In this document: one piece after another, positions 15,589-35,105 of the stretch | Numbering within the stretch: the first letter of the stretch is position 1 | Layout of the letters: every line of letters starts with the position of its first letter | Assembly (NCBI RefSeq): GCF_021732705.1 | Contig: NZ_JAKFUM010000011.1 | Span: 248,001-312,000, forward strand | Direction of reading: 5' to 3' | DNA length: 64,000 nt | Origin: Nevskia sp. | Lineage (GTDB): Bacteria > Pseudomonadota > Gammaproteobacteria > Nevskiales > Nevskiaceae | The notes under the pieces: generated by a model | What the model was told of the DNA's origin: nothing | Databases searched by the model: none | The model's input: only the letters and a program-made list of their open reading frames with translations | Program-made: the position numbers and the translations under genes

Positions 15589-16376
15589 TGCAGTACCCGG
15601 CCAGCCTGCTGCAGGCGCCGCTGCGCGCCAGCTTTGCCGACGCTGCCCCGGAGACGGTGATCCGCAGCCAGAACGACAGCGGCCCGCGCAAGGCCCGGCA
15701 GCGCTACACCGCAGCCGAGCGGCCGCTGAGCTGCACGGTGCTGCTGCGCTCACAGGCGGAGAAGGATCTGCTGGACAACTGGTTCCAGTACACGCTGGCC
15801 GGTGGCGCCCTGCCCTTCGCCTGGCCAGCGCTGGGCTCGGCGCTGGGCGAACGCAACCTGCTGAACAAGGGCAGCTTCGCGGATCTGCAGCGCGGACTGT
15901 GGACCGGTTCCGGCAGCACGATCCAGAGCACGACGGAAGCCTGGGGCGGCTTTTTTCAGGCGCTGCAGCGGGACAATTCCGAGAACGCGCCGTTCGATGT
16001 CACGCCCGGGCAGCGGCTGTTCACGCGGCTGCGGATGCGATCCACCGGCTGCACGTATCCGCTGGCGTTCAACGTGGCCTTTGCCAACGCCAGCGGCGCG
16101 AACTTCGTGTTCGGCGCCGGCGGCGACCTGCCGGCCAATACCGGCTGGACGCTGGTCACGGCGTCATGCCTGGTGCCGGATGGTGCGGTCAGCGGCCGCG
16201 GCTATCTGGTGATCAACGGACCGGCCAGTACCAACATTGGCCCGGCCGGGTTTGCCGAGCTGTCGGTCTCGACCTCGCCGCTGGATGCCCGCTACAGCGT
16301 AGTGGCCGGGCCGACCTATCGGCTGGCGGGTGCCCGCGTGTGGACCGCGGACCTTCAGCTGGTGCGCCTGCCGTGA
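15588..16376 (+). CDS. Minor tail protein (distal-tail region)
   Basis: A 262-aa protein whose ATG overlaps the last base of the tape measure gene. The first 90 residues hold a conserved minor-tail pattern (RQRYTAAERPLSCTVLLRSQ, then LLDNWFQYTLAGGALPFAWP). A carbohydrate-binding-like beta domain follows (LLNKGSFADLQRGLWTGSG), and a long beta-rich remainder. Position after the tape measure and before a DUF1833 protein fits the tail-tip assembly set. It probably forms part of the baseplate-like tip. Confidence 0.65.
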   Translation: MQYPASLLQAPLRASFADAAPETVIRSQNDSGPRKARQRYTAAERPLSCTVLLRSQAEKDLLDNWFQYTLAGGALPFAWPALGSALGERNLLNKGSFADLQRGLWTGSGSTIQSTTEAWGGFFQALQRDNSENAPFDVTPGQRLFTRLRMRSTGCTYPLAFNVAFANASGANFVFGAGGDLPANTGWTLVTASCLVPDGAVSGRGYLVINGPASTNIGPAGFAELSVSTSPLDARYSVVAGPTYRLAGARVWTADLQLVRLP

Positions 16377-25223: not shown

Positions 25224-25838
25224 ATGCAAACCATCCTGCGGCGGTATCTCACGCCGGCTGAAGAGAAACAGTTTTTCGATGCCATCAAGGCGCGCAGTGG
25301 CTTCGCAGCCGCGCGGGACTATCACGTGCTGCGCCTGATCCGCCTGTGCGGCGGCCGCGTGGGCGCGATCTGCAAGCTGACCGTGGGCGATGCCCGCAAC
25401 GCGCTGGCCGAGCAGTCCCTGCAGTTCCGCAGCGCGATCGCCAAGGGCGGCCGCGGCTACGAGGTGCCGCTGACCAAGGCCATCACCGAGGAGCTGCGCG
25501 CCCTGCTGAAGCTGCGCAAGGATGAAGGCCTGTCGATGGATCTGGCCGAGCCGCTAGTGATCAGCCGCACGCGCGGCGTGGGCGGCACCGGGCTCACGCC
25601 GCGCGCGCTGCAGATGCGCTGCCGGCATTGGAGTCAGGCTGCGGGTCTATCCGTGGAGGTCTCCCCGCACTGGCTGCGCCATACGTTGGGGCAGCGCCTG
25701 GTGGAGCGCAGCACCGGCAAGGAACCGGTGCTGCACGCCGCCGCCGTGCTGGGCCACCGCGATCTGCGCAGCACGATGATCTACACCCGCCCCACCCGCG
25801 AAGCCGTGGCCAGCAGCCTGCGCGAGGCGGCACTGTGA
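25224..25838 (+). CDS. Short tyrosine recombinase, catalytic domain only
   Basis: A 204-aa protein. All catalytic signatures are present: Arg in CGGRVGAICKL, Lys in AIAKGGRGYEV, HxxR in HWLRHTLG, His in VLGHRDLRS and Tyr in TMIYTRP. The N-terminal core-binding domain of phage integrases is absent, so this is about half the usual length. Small recombinases of this kind are found in mobile elements and some phages, where they may resolve dimers or help excision. It is the second tyrosine recombinase in this prophage and is coupled to the next gene by a GTGA overlap. Confidence 0.85.
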   Translation: MQTILRRYLTPAEEKQFFDAIKARSGFAAARDYHVLRLIRLCGGRVGAICKLTVGDARNALAEQSLQFRSAIAKGGRGYEVPLTKAITEELRALLKLRKDEGLSMDLAEPLVISRTRGVGGTGLTPRALQMRCRHWSQAAGLSVEVSPHWLRHTLGQRLVERSTGKEPVLHAAAVLGHRDLRSTMIYTRPTREAVASSLREAAL

Positions 25839-27501: not shown

Positions 27502-28061
27502 GCGCCCAAATGCCGGTTCGCCATCTCGACACCCTGCGCCCGATCGCGGCACTCGCCGCCAACCGGCCGCACGGCGATCGCCTGCGGTATCTCGCCGGCT
27601 GCCGCTGCGAGTGGTGCAAGAAGGCCAATTCGCTATACGAGAACGCGCGGCGGCAAGCCCGGGCCCGCGGCGAGCACAACGGCATTGTCGATGCCACCGA
27701 GGCCCGCGAGCACCTGCTGTACCTGCGCAAGCGCCACGTCGGCCGGCGTGCGGTGCACGCGGTATCGGGCGTGTCTGAAACCGTGCAGCAAGAGGTCGCC
27801 AGCGGCCGCAAGCCGAAGATCCGCGCCGAGACCGCGCGCAAGATCCTGCGCATCACCGTCCAACAGTGCAGCGACCACGCGCTGGTGTCGGCGAAGACCA
27901 CGTGGAAGCTGCTGAACGAGCTCCTCGAGGAGGGCTTCACCGAAGCGCAGCTGGCGAAGGCGCTGGGCTACCAGCAGCCATATCTGCAGATCAAGCGTAC
28001 GAAAGTGCTGGCGATCACCGAGCTCAGGGTGCAGCGGCTGCACGCGAGGCTGATGGCATGA
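27498..28061 (+). CDS. Phage protein with N-terminal zinc-like motif and HTH-like end
   Basis: A 187-aa protein. Residues 27-55 contain HGDRLRYLAGCRCEWCKKAN, a C-x-C-x2-C motif followed by a Lys/Arg-rich helix, seen in many phage proteins of unknown role. The C-terminal half has a helix-turn-helix-like element (TEAQLAKALGYQQPYLQIKR). It could be a DNA-binding regulator. Start and stop are in ATGA overlaps with its neighbours. Confidence 0.6.
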   Translation: MSAQMPVRHLDTLRPIAALAANRPHGDRLRYLAGCRCEWCKKANSLYENARRQARARGEHNGIVDATEAREHLLYLRKRHVGRRAVHAVSGVSETVQQEVASGRKPKIRAETARKILRITVQQCSDHALVSAKTTWKLLNELLEEGFTEAQLAKALGYQQPYLQIKRTKVLAITELRVQRLHARLMA

Positions 28062-28660
28062 GCGCGCATCGCTGCCATTGGCCTGGTTGTTCAAGCGCAG
28101 TGCCGCCGGCGTTGTGGGGATGCCGCAGCCATTGGTTCAGGCTGCCAAAGCACCTGCGGGATCTGGTGACGGCGACGTATCGACGCGGCCAGGAGATCAC
28201 CAAGGATCCGTCGCTGGAGTATGTCGCTGCAGCGAACGCCGTTCAGGAATGGATCCGATCGAACTGCGCCGATGAAATCGGAGTGCCGATGATTCACACC
28301 CTGAGCATCCTGCAGCCGTGGGCGTGGCTGATCGTGCATGGCTACAAGGACATCGAGAACCGTGACTGGGCAACCAGCTTCCGCGGACGATTTCTGATTC
28401 ATGCCGGCAAGCGATTCGGTCGCGAGCAACGCGAGGATGTCGCTCAGGTGATTCAGCGCTTTCCTGCCATCAAGCTGCCGGAGCAGTTCGCGCTGGGCGG
28501 CATCGTTGGCGATGCCGAGTTGCTGGACTGCACCGATCAGCATTCGAGCCCTTGGTTCGTCGGCAGCTTCGGCTTCGTGCTCGCCAATGCCAGGCCGTTG
28601 CCGTTCCGCGCCTACACCGGGCAGCTGGGCTTTTTTCGAACGCCGGATGTGAAGTCATGA
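28058..28660 (+). CDS. Fusion of a small Cys/His phage domain to an ASCH domain
   Basis: A 200-aa protein. Residues 1-66 form a domain common as a separate 80-aa phage protein (CHWPGCSSAVPPALWGCRSH, then RDLVTATYRRGQE). Residues 78-200 form an ASCH/PUA-like domain: HTLSILQPWAWLIVHGYKDI, ENRDWATSFRGRFLIHAG and a final GQLGFFR. ASCH domains bind RNA or act as nucleases or acetylcytidine hydrolases in known cases. A methionine precedes the ASCH part, so a separate start there (about 28289) is possible, but the frame is continuous. Confidence 0.75.
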   Translation: MSAHRCHWPGCSSAVPPALWGCRSHWFRLPKHLRDLVTATYRRGQEITKDPSLEYVAAANAVQEWIRSNCADEIGVPMIHTLSILQPWAWLIVHGYKDIENRDWATSFRGRFLIHAGKRFGREQREDVAQVIQRFPAIKLPEQFALGGIVGDAELLDCTDQHSSPWFVGSFGFVLANARPLPFRAYTGQLGFFRTPDVKS

Positions 28661-29622: not shown

Positions 29623-32490
29623 ATGCAGCCATCGGACTCAGAGGGATTCAAGGAAGCACTATGGCGCAACGCGGCGGAGATCAAGGAACGGGTGGATCTG
29701 CACGATCTGGCCGAGAAGCTTGGGCTGGAGCGGCCGGTGCGCAGCGGCAACTACAAGAGCCCGCACCACAAGGACAAGAGCCCGAGCCTGTCGATCTTCG
29801 ACGGCGGCACCGGCTGGAAGGACTGGAGCAGCGACGCCGGCGGCGATGCCTTCAGCCTGGTGATGTATGTGAACGGCTGCGACTTCCCCGAGGCCAGCCG
29901 CTGGCTGCATGACTACTGCGACATCCCCTGGCCAACAGCCAAGGAAGCCCCGCGGCGAGAGCGCAGCGCGGCCGAGTTCATCGCCACCAGTTGCCTTGCG
30001 GATCCTGAGCCGGCGGTGGCCTATCTGCGCGATGAGCGGAAGATCCCGGAAGCGACGATCCGCGAAGCGATCAAGGCGCGCACACTGGGCTATTCGAGCT
30101 GGACCAGCGACAAGACGCCGGCCGGCGAGATCGGACATCAGGGCCCGGCGGTGGCTTTCATCGCGTATGACCCCACCACGGGCCTGGCGGAGGGCGTGGA
30201 CAAGCGCTTCATCGATCCCGCCCTGAACGGCGGGCTGAAGACCTGGAGCAAGGGCGAAAAGCTAGGCCTGCCGTGGCTGGCCAGCCGTCGATCGCTGAAG
30301 GCCGCGCGCACGGTCTACGTGGTGGAGTCTGCGATCAATGCGCTGTCGATCGAGGCCTGCGAGATCAAGGGTGCCTGCGCGATGGCCGTGCGCGGCCTGC
30401 AGGGCGCGGCGGCGATCGACTGGACGCAGTGCCACGGCAAGCACGTGGTGATCGTGTTCGATGCCGACGAACCGAACGCCAGGGACCGCCGGCCCGGGCC
30501 GGAAGCGGCCTGGGCGCTGTATGACCAGCTGACGGCGCTGAACATTGGCTGCGCGATCGTGGACCAGACCGACTGGGCCCGCCGCAAGCTGAACGACTGC
30601 AACGACGTGCTGAAGGCCGAAGGGGTCGACGGCCTGCGCACGCGGCTGCGGCGCCTGGAGGATTCCGCGATCGCCGGCGTACCGGCGAAGGTGCAGCCCG
30701 GGCCGAAGCGGCTGTGGCTGCCGGGCTATGACTTCGCGGTGTACGGCCGCTTCAAGGCGCAAGCCGACTTCACGCAGTACATCAGCGATCTCGGCGACGA
30801 CCCGGAGGAAGATTCCGGCAGCGATGACGACGATGAAGCTGGCGGCGAACGCCGCGGCGTGAAGCTGGCGCCGCTGGCCGGCTTCCGGATTGCGGCGATC
30901 TCGCGCGTGACCATCCAGAGCCCGAAAGCGACGGTCAGCGGCGTGAAGGATTCCGCACCGACGACGCAGTTCGCGGCCACGGTGCAGGTGCCACGCCACG
31001 GGCCGCGGCTGCTGCGCCGGGTGTTCCGCGATGAAGATCTGCATCGACTGGCGCGCTGGGAGGACTTCGGGCCGATCTACGACCCGAAGCAGTTCAAGCG
31101 CCTGGTCACCTTGTTCGAGCGCGCCGTGCACTTCGGCGAACGCCGCGCGGCCAACTTCGTGGGCCTGTGCTGGCTGGACGGCAAGCTGCGCGTGAACGAG
31201 GGCACGGACTGCTATTTCGAGCGGCCCGACAAGCAGTGCATCTATCACGATGCCGTGTTCCATCGCGGCACGCAGAGCGACGCCCGGGCGGTGATCGATG
31301 CCTACCAGACCACGTTCAAGCAGAACGCGGCCGCGATCCCGCTGGTGTGGGTCTGCGGCGCCGTGGCGCTGAAGTGCATCCTGGGCTTCTGGCCGCACTT
31401 CGAGATGCAGGCCAAGAAGGCATCCGGCAAGTCGACGCTGATCGAGCGCCTGAGCGGCACCACGGGCTTCCAGATGTTCAGCTCGGAACAGCTCAAGACC
31501 TCGTACCGCATCATCAGCTCGGTGGGGCATTCCTCGATCCCGGTGGGCTGGGAAGAAGTCAGCAAGGCCGGCAAGGTGAGCCTGGCGATGGCGATCACCA
31601 TGCTGCAGGAGAGTTACCAGTTCACGCCGCACACGCGCGGATCCGAGAACCTGCGGTATCTCAATGCCGCACCGGTGCTGCTGGCAGGTGAAGACGTGCC
31701 GGCCAAGGACATCACCGGCAAGTTGGTGCGCACCAAGCTGACCAGCGAAAAGCAGGGCCCGGTGATGCCGAAGAAGCTGCCGCTGTGGCCGATGCGCAAC
31801 TGGCTGGACTGGGTGGCGGAGCTCGACCCGGAAACGGTGGTGAAGCGTCACGAGCGGCTGCTGGAGTACTGCTATCGCAACAGCCGCAGCACCAAGGGCG
31901 ATCTCGGTGCCAAGCGCATGGCCACGAACTACAGCGCGCTGCTGCTGGCGTGGAAGCTGATGACCGAGTTCGCCGGCATCGAGGAGAACGCGGGCGACTT
32001 TCCGCGCGACTGCATCGCGGAAATGAACGCCCACATGACCGAGACCGAGCACGATCGCGAGCCGTTCGTGTGGATCCTGGAGAAGCTGGCCAGCGAGATC
32101 GCCAGCGATCGCTTCGTTTATCCGTTCGCGTGGCGCGAGGTGAAGCCAGGGCCGGATCAGGAGCCGGAGGTGTGCCTGGTGGTCAAGGCGCAGTACGTGA
32201 TGGATCACCTGTCGACGTCCAACAACCTGCGCGACTTCTACGACACGCTGCCGATCAAGACCGCGCGCGTGTTCAAGCAGCAGCTGGTCGACGCGGAGCT
32301 GGTGGTTGATCCCGATTTCCGCACCGTCATCAACGGCCGCGACCAGTACCACTGCATCGCGATCGGCGTGAAGCGGTGCTCAGCCAAGGGCATCGACCTG
32401 CCGGTCAAGGTGATCAAGGACGGCAGTGAGACCGAGATCGGCCGCGCACTGGCTGCCGAGATGCGCGCTGCGGATGAAGCGCCCGTCTGA
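29623..32490 (+). CDS. Primase-helicase with a cysteine-free zinc-ribbon fold
   Basis: A 955-aa replication protein. Residues 43-82 align with the DnaG CHC2 zinc ribbon (SPHHKDKSPSLSI; GWKDWSSDAGGDAFSLVM), but the three Cys ligands are replaced by Ser46, Asp67 and Ser70; only His49 remains. A Toprim domain follows, with Glu235 (VVESAIN) and Asp280/Asp282 (FDADEPN), which supports RNA primer synthesis. The C-terminal half is a helicase-type ATPase with Walker A Lys603 (KKASGKST). An acidic linker at residues 390-405 divides the parts. It ends the early operon and is followed by a terminator and the iteron-like array. Confidence 0.8.
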   Translation: MQPSDSEGFKEALWRNAAEIKERVDLHDLAEKLGLERPVRSGNYKSPHHKDKSPSLSIFDGGTGWKDWSSDAGGDAFSLVMYVNGCDFPEASRWLHDYCDIPWPTAKEAPRRERSAAEFIATSCLADPEPAVAYLRDERKIPEATIREAIKARTLGYSSWTSDKTPAGEIGHQGPAVAFIAYDPTTGLAEGVDKRFIDPALNGGLKTWSKGEKLGLPWLASRRSLKAARTVYVVESAINALSIEACEIKGACAMAVRGLQGAAAIDWTQCHGKHVVIVFDADEPNARDRRPGPEAAWALYDQLTALNIGCAIVDQTDWARRKLNDCNDVLKAEGVDGLRTRLRRLEDSAIAGVPAKVQPGPKRLWLPGYDFAVYGRFKAQADFTQYISDLGDDPEEDSGSDDDDEAGGERRGVKLAPLAGFRIAAISRVTIQSPKATVSGVKDSAPTTQFAATVQVPRHGPRLLRRVFRDEDLHRLARWEDFGPIYDPKQFKRLVTLFERAVHFGERRAANFVGLCWLDGKLRVNEGTDCYFERPDKQCIYHDAVFHRGTQSDARAVIDAYQTTFKQNAAAIPLVWVCGAVALKCILGFWPHFEMQAKKASGKSTLIERLSGTTGFQMFSSEQLKTSYRIISSVGHSSIPVGWEEVSKAGKVSLAMAITMLQESYQFTPHTRGSENLRYLNAAPVLLAGEDVPAKDITGKLVRTKLTSEKQGPVMPKKLPLWPMRNWLDWVAELDPETVVKRHERLLEYCYRNSRSTKGDLGAKRMATNYSALLLAWKLMTEFAGIEENAGDFPRDCIAEMNAHMTETEHDREPFVWILEKLASEIASDRFVYPFAWREVKPGPDQEPEVCLVVKAQYVMDHLSTSNNLRDFYDTLPIKTARVFKQQLVDAELVVDPDFRTVINGRDQYHCIAIGVKRCSAKGIDLPVKVIKDGSETEIGRALAAEMRAADEAPV

Positions 32491-32510
32491 CATCGATCCC
32501 CTGCTGCACT

Positions 32511-32536
32511 GCCCCGCCCCGCGGGGCTTTTTTTTG
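32511..32536 (+). terminator. Rho-independent terminator of the early operon
   Basis: GCCCCGC (32511-32517) pairs with GCGGGGC (32521-32527), followed by eight T residues (32528-32535). It lies 20 bases after the primase-helicase stop and immediately before the iteron-like array. Confidence 0.9.
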
Positions 32537-32541
32537 CCCGG

Positions 32542-32986
32542 AACCTGCACGGTCCCCCGCAAACCTGCACGGTCCACTTGCCTTGATCCCCTCGCTTGCG
32601 GGGGAAAAAGCCGTTTACCGCGCGTGTGAGGCAGGCATTCCGTTTCAACTTGCACGGTGCCCCCTGCCTTTTGGCCTAAGCCTTTGATTGTCTAAGCAAC
32701 TGCACCGTGCAACTTCCAACGATTACCGTGCAACTTTCCCGCTGTACCGTTCACCTTTTCACCTTCCGCTGCACATGAAGTCTTTCGAGCTTTCATATCT
32801 ATCTCTCTCTTTTTATTGAAAAAGAAGAAGAAGAATGGAGAAAGCGGGCATGTGCAACTTTCGTCGGTCCCGAAAAAAGGACCGTGCAACTTCTCAGTGC
32901 GGAAATCGCAAACCTGCACAGTCCCGATCCTCGACAGATCAATGACTTACGCCGCTTTCCGGGCAGAAAGCGGGACCGTGCAGGTT
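32542..32986. repeat. Iteron-like array: ten copies of a 14-bp motif; candidate origin
   Basis: The motif AACCTGCACGGTCC occurs in full or near-full form at 32542, 32562, 32647 (variant) and 32911. In reverse orientation (GGACCGTGC-A-R/A-STT) it occurs at 32702, 32723, 32744 (degenerate), 32847, 32879 and 32973. All ten lie in 445 bases. The first two are spaced exactly 20 bp. An AT- and purine-rich tract (32780-32840) lies in the middle, where DNA would open easily. No protein-coding gene fits the interval. Position right after a primase-helicase gene suggests a replication origin with initiator-binding iterons. A partition site or transcription-control array is an alternative. Confidence 0.7.
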
Positions 32987-33478
32987 GATCGCATGCCTGC
33001 CACGCGATCGGCAGCAGCGACGGCGGCGACATCGAGCTGCAGCCTGGCGATGGGGCGCGATCGAGGACGCGCCGGCGGCAGGCGCGCGCGCTGCCCGGCC
33101 AGCCCATGCAAATCGTAGAGCCGGGGCTGCGCACACTCTCAGAAGCTATGCAGGCGGACGTTTGCGCGGGGTCTCTAAGAAGGCCTTGGAGCGGCCTATC
33201 TCAAGCGGTGTGCTGAACTTCGCGTTCTGGAAGATTGCGAAGTTGACCGACGATGACGACACGGCCGATCAAGGGCTTGCGGATGCCATCGTGCGAGATA
33301 AGCGAAGTTCATTCGCCAGTGTCGCGATCGTCGGTCATCGTGCAGCGGCCGGACCATAGTCCCGGCAGGGGTGGGGGCTCGGCAGGATAGCCCCGCCCTA
33401 TCAGGTGGGTAGGTGGGTACCAGAACATCCGCAATATCCAGAAGCGCTTTTTTGGCGCGCGCGACCGGTGACCGAGCC
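32987..33478. other. Intergenic region before the serine integrase, no clear gene
   Basis: About 490 bases without a credible gene. One frame (to 33359) encodes a plausible short segment (SSGVLNFAFWKIAKLTDDDD) but lacks a start codon with a ribosome site. A GC-rich stem (GGGGGCTC with GATAGCCCC, near 33371-33394) and a short GGTGGGTA tandem repeat (33405-33418) lie before the integrase gene. These may be transcription or integrase-control elements, but I cannot assign them. Confidence 0.5.

Positions 33479-35105
<1,627 letters not shown>

Follow-up and report, generated by a model that had tools for sequence, protein, structure and literature searches.

Organization of the locus

The window analyzed in this study is a stretch of 64 kb from the genome of Nevskia sp. 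(contig NZ_JAKFUM010000011.1, positions 248,001 to 312,000). Our subject is an array of short repeats (iterons) at 32542-32986 of this window, which lies just downstream of a gene for a primase-helicase and which we regard as a candidate origin of phage replication. The gene, at 29623-32490 on the plus strand, encodes a protein of 955 amino acids, the proposed initiator, with a CHC2 zinc finger, a TOPRIM primase, an AAA+/MCM-like helicase and a C-terminal winged helix. The CHC2 and TOPRIM domains were detected as such, and the protein matched phrog_5629 over nearly its full length (E 1.6e-297); no Pfam helicase match was obtained for it. The winged helix (residues 849-921) is encoded at 32167-32385 on the plus strand, and its sequence follows the iteron word, as described below.

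The iteron reads ACCGTGCANNTT in one orientation. Allowing one mismatch, we found 12 matches in the window, 9 of them inside 32542-32986, and 100 dinucleotide shuffles of the window gave a mean of 2.84 such matches and at most 6. The array consists of ten copies, namely seven exact copies, two with one mismatch and a degenerate tenth, a 12-mer that keeps the register. The ten-copy array claimed by the original prediction, which had been made from the sequence alone, was thus borne out, as were the spacing of 20 bp between the first two copies, the presence of both orientations and the existence of two subtypes. The subtypes sort by distance from a central core. That is, the copies near the core at 32704, 32725, 32849 and 32881 carry AACTT and the copy at 32746 carries ACCTT, and those farther away (32542, 32562, 32647, 32911 and 32975) carry AGGTT or AAGTT. 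The original prediction had not noticed the motif in the rest of the window. The scan with up to one mismatch found no second cluster in the 64 kb, but three one-mismatch singletons exist at 15728, 38491 and 60734. In the assembly to which the window belongs (4.53 Mb, 95.91% complete), 7 of the 13 exact matches of the word fall within the 445 bp of the array and the remaining 6 are scattered.

The core, at 32794-32841 (plus strand), consists of a pyrimidine run, TTATTGAAA and a purine run. The original prediction had described an AT- and purine-rich tract at 32780-32840; the low G+C content was confirmed (0.36-0.44 against 0.67 for the whole window), and the tract is better described as a run of pyrimidines that gives way to a run of purines. 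We searched for repeats around the core, and the best family of 8-mers scored 7.0, compared with 3.0 or less in 20 shuffles. To the left of the core stands a triad of plus-strand iterons at intervals of 21 bp, comprising ACCGTGCAACTT at 32704-32715 and again at 32725-32736 and the one-mismatch copy ACCGTTCACCTT at 32746-32757. To its right are the degenerate GTGCAACTT (32849-32860, plus strand), placed 32 bp ahead of the next copy, ACCGTGCAACTT at 32881-32892 (plus strand), and the inverted copy ACTGTGCAGGTT at 32911-32922 (minus strand). Farther out lie the inverted iteron ACCGTGCAAGTT at 32647-32658 on the minus strand, with its center at -161 relative to the core (its counterparts in relatives are at about -140 to -175), and on the right ACCGTGCAGGTT at 32975-32986 (plus strand). 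Two additional minus-strand copies of ACCGTGCAGGTT, at 32542-32553 and 32562-32573, lie beyond the layout that is common to the relatives.

A hairpin followed by a T run, resembling an intrinsic terminator, was found by pattern match at 32511-32535 (plus strand), between the primase-helicase gene and the array; the searched stretch contains two hairpins of this pattern, and 1.2 are expected from shuffles. The extra iteron pair adjoins this hairpin and is possibly a control site. A search of 32400-33450 for promoters and known RNAs found none.

A shared scaffold in related phages

When 50,697 phage records were searched by tblastn, 20 contained the gene, with 45-49% identity; 19 of the 20, duplicates included, belong to Burkholderia. 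We then compared 168 loci, which comprise the window, 6 phage records, 1 IMG/VR locus, the best 80 of 89 relatives from one search and the best 80 of 272 from another; one locus with a weak, partial primase match (L017) was left out. Ten of the 168 were too short for the core test, leaving 158. With a scoring matrix derived from 49 distinct cores among these loci, the window's included, a core was present downstream of the primase-helicase in 125 of the 158 testable loci, as compared with 1 of 145 upstream control stretches (701 kb in total). The core was located less than 700 bp from the end of the primase match in 93 of the 125 and at 0.7-2 kb in 8.

Dropping near-duplicates and incomplete loci left 101 non-redundant origins. 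In 93 of these an iteron family exceeded its own 20 shuffles and could be refined to at least four sites, and 84 of the 93 passed a layout test, which was loose in that it required one inverted site together with two direct sites on the left or three on the right. A typical origin has, from left to right, an inverted iteron at about -160, two or three direct copies, the core, a further two or three direct copies, inverted copies and finally a pair. Neighboring direct iterons of the left set are separated by 21 bp in 123 of 136 intervals; in the right set the commonest of 318 distances are 32 bp (55), 8 bp (50) and 21 bp (39). In the window the sites are found at -161 (inverted), -108, -87 and -66 (direct), then, beyond the core, at 37 and 69 (direct), 103 (inverted) and 163 (direct). 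One relative, L107, which carries the word TGCGCGGGT, has its left set at -162 (inverted), -108, -87 and -66 (direct), within a base of the window, and its right set stands about 20 bp farther from the core than that of the window.

The words placed on this scaffold differ. The KL3-type word is CCACGAGT, the L025-type CCACGGGT and the L061-type GTGCGGGTT; phages KL3 and Menos have a closely similar pyrimidine-to-purine core in the equivalent intergenic place, but the repeat is GCCACKAGTC. In KS14 the same origin was recognized, with its core at about 29868 of the record and ATCCTCG iterons at six of the family positions. According to the original prediction, absence of the motif from related phages with the same replication gene would speak against an origin. 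The exact word does differ in the relatives, and the scaffold is kept; because relatives put other words on the same scaffold, a test by word absence would have misfired. The prediction had also placed no gene in the interval. Mechanically called open reading frames (ORFs) do overlap it, and no annotated gene lies over the core in KL3, FLC10 or KS14.

In the stretches viewed of the record tables of KL3, Menos, Mana, FLC10 and KS14, no origin is annotated, and a literature search of open-licence PMC articles found no paper on this origin family. KS14 has been reported as a plasmid prophage (PMC3091744), and the words "iteron" and "primase" do not occur in the main text of that paper. We also considered whether co-resident prophages differ in their iterons as a rule. 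One pair from a single isolate (L025 and L040) differs and another such pair (L023 and L029) is similar, so that no rule emerged.

Paired IHF-consensus sites

On both sides of the core, the stretch that separates the inner iteron set from the outer inverted iteron contains matches to WATCAANNNNTTR, which we take to be the consensus of integration host factor (IHF), a string that occurs in published papers. The two sites face each other. In the window the left site, AATCAAAGGCTTA at 32677-32689 on the minus strand, is an exact match, and the right site, GATCAATGACTTA at 32937-32949 on the plus strand, has one mismatch. Among the 101 origins the exact consensus was present on the left in 76 and on the right in 42, against a background of 0.018 per kb. 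When one mismatch was allowed, the opposite strand of the same zones gave 3 of 101 on the left and 7 of 101 on the right.

These one-mismatch counts were inflated by iterons that resemble the consensus, and the right site of the window (at +121) fell outside the zone used for them. A second count excluded the look-alikes and covered wider zones. With up to one mismatch, it gave a left site in 90 of 101 origins, a right site in 84 and both in 76. Random zones, which imitate the left zone only, held such a match in 22 of 1780 cases. As a separate observation, the core itself is one mismatch away from the IHF consensus in 57 of the 101 origins (at about -7, minus strand).

Co-variation of the iteron word with the winged helix

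For this comparison we used 80 origins, that is, the 84 that passed the layout test minus 4 without a full-length protein. Three origins with noise-like words that the loose test had admitted (L047, L110 and L066) were kept in the tests on 80 origins and dropped for the column scan, which was thus performed with 77. After overall divergence was removed, the similarity of iteron matrices tracked the C-terminal residues 841-930 of the primase-helicase. The peak was at residues 881-910 (rho 0.59, partial 0.49). Seven residue windows starting at 841-901 exceeded all 300 permutations at their own place, and the largest permuted value over all residue windows was 0.288. In the scan of 659 alignment columns, the top five were 855, 910, 902, 856 and 909, all of which are in the winged helix and three of which are in its beta-wing. 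From these comparisons, the reader of the iterons is apparently the winged helix at the C-terminus of the primase-helicase that the phage itself encodes.

Individual residues were then related to the words. Tyr-910 occurred with CCACGAGT (21 origins) and His-910 with CCACGGGT (22 origins), so that 43 of 46 cases were concordant and 3 were exceptions. Asn-855 occurred with CC(C)C in all 7 cases, and Arg-855 with CC(A)C in 51 of 58, the variable base being C in 4 and T in 3. Glu-900 accompanied CC-type words in 69 of 69 origins, and residues other than Glu at 900 (Asp or Asn, and Arg in the window) accompanied TGCGC or GTGC words in 6 of 6, the window among them. The remaining 5 of the 80 origins were unclassed for this rule, and all have Glu. 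Outside these sets, an origin with the word TGCGCGG (L060) has Ser-900, and a locus outside the layout set (L020) has Glu-900 with a doubtful GCGG word.

Structure models of the primase-helicase

The model of the window protein had a mean predicted local distance difference test (pLDDT) value of 90.7. Its best match in the PDB was Cch, the MCM-like helicase of SCCmec (5dgk; E 7.1e-11, template modeling (TM) score 0.62 by target, 9% identity), followed among the 50 matches listed by DnaG primases and MCM chains and, lower down, by PriRep1 (7pds, rank 49). As modeled, the protein joins a DnaG-type primase to an MCM-like helicase with the MCM-like AAA+ fold. A comparison with viral models gave nothing firm, the best match having an E value of 7.0e-21 and a TM score of only 0.23.

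The C-terminal domain modeled apart had a pLDDT of 90.5 and the make-up of a winged helix. Residues 900, 902, 909 and 910 lie in a modeled beta-hairpin formed by 894-903 and 906-915, and residues 855-856 are at the start of a modeled helix, 856-865. We propose from this arrangement, and from the nearest structural match of the domain (TcpK, discussed below), that the beta-wing may read the iteron DNA.

Interpretation and alternative explanations

The comparison with relatives makes it very probable that a tailed temperate phage starts its replication at the array, with the primase-helicase as its initiator, and in this respect it supports the first choice of the original prediction, which had named the primase-helicase as a possible initiator. 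The primase-helicase and the origin probably work like the Rep protein and origin of the Staphylococcus aureus pathogenicity islands (SaPI) and phage-inducible chromosomal islands (PICI), because the modeled protein is a DnaG-type primase joined to an MCM-like helicase nearest to Cch. We speculate that the protein, made from the gene just upstream, would bind the iterons through its C-terminal winged helix, chiefly by the beta-wing, and that the phasing of 21 and 32 bp would align the occupied iterons along a single face of the helix on either side of the core. Bending by host IHF at the two inverted sites may fold the outer inverted iterons back. Once assembled, the MCM-like rings would open the pyrimidine/purine core, the proposed site of melting and helicase loading, and be loaded outward, and the fused DnaG-type primase would lay the primers.

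A wider proposal is that these loci form a widespread, undescribed class of phage origin, in which a TOPRIM primase is fused to an MCM-like helicase and the iterons are read mainly by the beta-wing. The scaffold (the core, the IHF pair and the helical phasing) would be fixed while the word drifts, which would produce natural specificity groups of initiator and origin, and residues 855, 900, 902, 909 and 910 would constitute a readable code. We offer this tentatively, with confidence that falls a little short of even. If it is true, about a hundred natural pairs of origin and initiator share one geometry with many words, the evolution of initiator specificity becomes directly testable, and an origin is placed in the named phages KL3, Menos, Mana, FLC10 and KS14.

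Several findings weigh against these interpretations. In 24 of the 125 loci with a core, the core lies more than 2 kb from the primase-helicase gene, and 33 of the 158 testable loci have no core by the core score. A repeat search in 32 of these 33 showed family-like iteron arrays in two (L027 and L141). Further repeats were present in L089, L132 and L176, those in L049, L050, L070 and L073 are tRNA clusters, and in the other searched loci the repeats were little above shuffles (4 per stretch). The window itself is a long-branch member with the extra iteron pair outside the layout, and the records of Menos and Mana annotate a hypothetical protein across the core, which we take for over-annotation. 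With regard to the reading of the word, there is a second, smaller peak of co-variation (up to 0.33) at residues 171-220, in the primase part, and the top 25 columns are mixed, with 9 in residues 830-930, 4 in the wing and 4 in a disordered tail. The best structural match of the C-terminal domain, TcpK on oriT DNA, is weak (E 0.012, probability 1.00, TM scores 0.42/0.57), and no match was below 0.001. The residue rules were derived from the very data that served to count them. In a tree built from residues 1-820, the independent pairs are few and none of the tests is significant: residue 910 has 5 pairs, on average about 4.9 of them concordant (sign test, p 0.0625), residue 855 has 3 of 4 concordant (p 0.25) and residue 900 has a single pair.

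We considered what else such an array might be. In lambda-type phage attachment sites (attP), arm sites for a tyrosine integrase and IHF sites surround a crossover core, and the array could likewise be an intasome site for recombination and not for replication. In the window, in KL3 and in Mana, IHF-consensus sites and inverted repeats do lie next to genes for an integrase or an excisionase. However, the recombinase adjoining the array in the window is a serine recombinase, although a short tyrosine-recombinase-like gene is present at 25224-25838, and the same scaffold stands beside tyrosine-type integrases (by annotation or match) in Menos and Mana. The scaffold is also kept in KS14, the reported plasmid prophage, the iteron words track the primase-helicase, and the likely attachment site of the element, described below, is 2 kb off. 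We therefore think an attP quite improbable.

Slightly less probable still are the partition site and the control array, which the original prediction had named together as its alternative and which we do not favor. An array of inverted sites would suit a parS-like centromere bound by a ParB-like protein, and a ParA gene is located between the primase and the array in FLC10 and beside the array in KS14; against this, no ParA is annotated in the viewed stretches of KL3, Menos and Mana, and none was found among the window ORFs searched, which cover part of the window. The core, the IHF sites and the helical phasing are origin-like, and the words co-vary with the primase-helicase. If the array served only in regulation or copy number, as a handcuffing site or operator, with the origin elsewhere, the extra outer iterons at 32542 and 32562 beside the terminator-like hairpin would find a place, and so would the separate replication initiation gene (gp37) of KS14. 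Such a role is at variance with the core, a conserved pyrimidine/purine tract of low GC that has phased sites on either side, and the region directly 3' of the helicase gene is the origin or putative origin in SaPI, the staphylococcal cassette chromosome (SCC) and PICI (PMC7581432, PMC6092414).

Comparison with known replication systems

Iteron words are known to differ between SaPI/PICI elements. In SaPI and PICI, the initiator is a helicase, sometimes fused to a primase, and the origin lies directly 3' of its gene, with two iteron sets around an AT-rich region; the C-terminal domain of the SaPI Rep recognizes this iteron origin (PMC6092414, PMC7581432). The window likewise has the candidate origin immediately 3' of the initiator helicase gene and two iteron sets flanking an AT-rich region. 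A claim in the literature that no other replicon has this layout seems too narrow. Unlike SaPI and PICI, the phage element has tail and lysis genes, and its primase is of the DnaG/TOPRIM type, but the primases of SaPIbov1 and SaPI5 are archaeo-eukaryotic primases. Compared by description, the phage origins apparently add the conserved pyrimidine/purine core, the paired IHF-consensus sites and the phasing of 21 and 32 bp.

The isolated C-terminal domain of Cch2 binds direct repeats downstream of cch2 (PMC7581432, section 6). Cch2 differs from the window protein, which has the primase fused, in having a separate CCPol-MP primase and three short iterons. TcpK of plasmid pCW3 is a winged helix whose beta-wing, placed in the major groove, reads tandem boxes of 9 nt (PMC6137059); it is a separate relaxosome protein, unlike the domain of the primase-helicase. 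The crenarchaeal plasmid pRN1 requires its replication protein and a stretch of 166 bp downstream (PMC4234260). It resembles the present system in this respect, and it differs in being an archaeal plasmid that also needs the upstream promoter region.

Two further systems are familiar. The alpha protein of phage P4 unites the functions of primase, helicase and origin recognition in a single chain, but its primase is of another type and it needs two distant cis sites, ori and crr. In iteron plasmids of the RepA/TrfA type, a RepA-type initiator recruits the host DnaB via DnaA and helicase loading; the primase-helicase has a predicted motor of its own. No match to a RepA-type initiator was found among the ORFs searched, which cover part of the window.

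The surrounding element

Downstream of the array, a gene for a large serine recombinase is present at 33413-35071. Its end overlaps a tRNA-Asn gene on the other strand (35030-35105), 2 kb from the array, and this tRNA gene is likely the attachment site of the element. Genes for a tape measure protein, a J-like fiber, a minor tail protein and a spanin lie further left in the window. From these tail and spanin genes we read the element as a likely siphovirus-like prophage. The presence of phage genes for tail and lysis also means that it is not a PICI, a satellite that depends on a helper phage for its virion.

The short tyrosine-recombinase-like gene at 25224-25838 (204 amino acids) lies in the early region and is present in addition to the serine recombinase; a XerD-like gene is likewise found upstream of the primase in Microcystis phage yong1. 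An ASCH-domain protein is encoded at 27866-28660, upstream of the primase-helicase. With the primase-helicase profile at E 1e-50, 1 of 194 genomes was positive, which was the window's own. With phrog_5629 at E 0.001, 2 of 18 genomes in the genus matched, the second match being weak and partial (E 1e-7), and the phrog_5629 family also matched in the control genome of Thermus composti.
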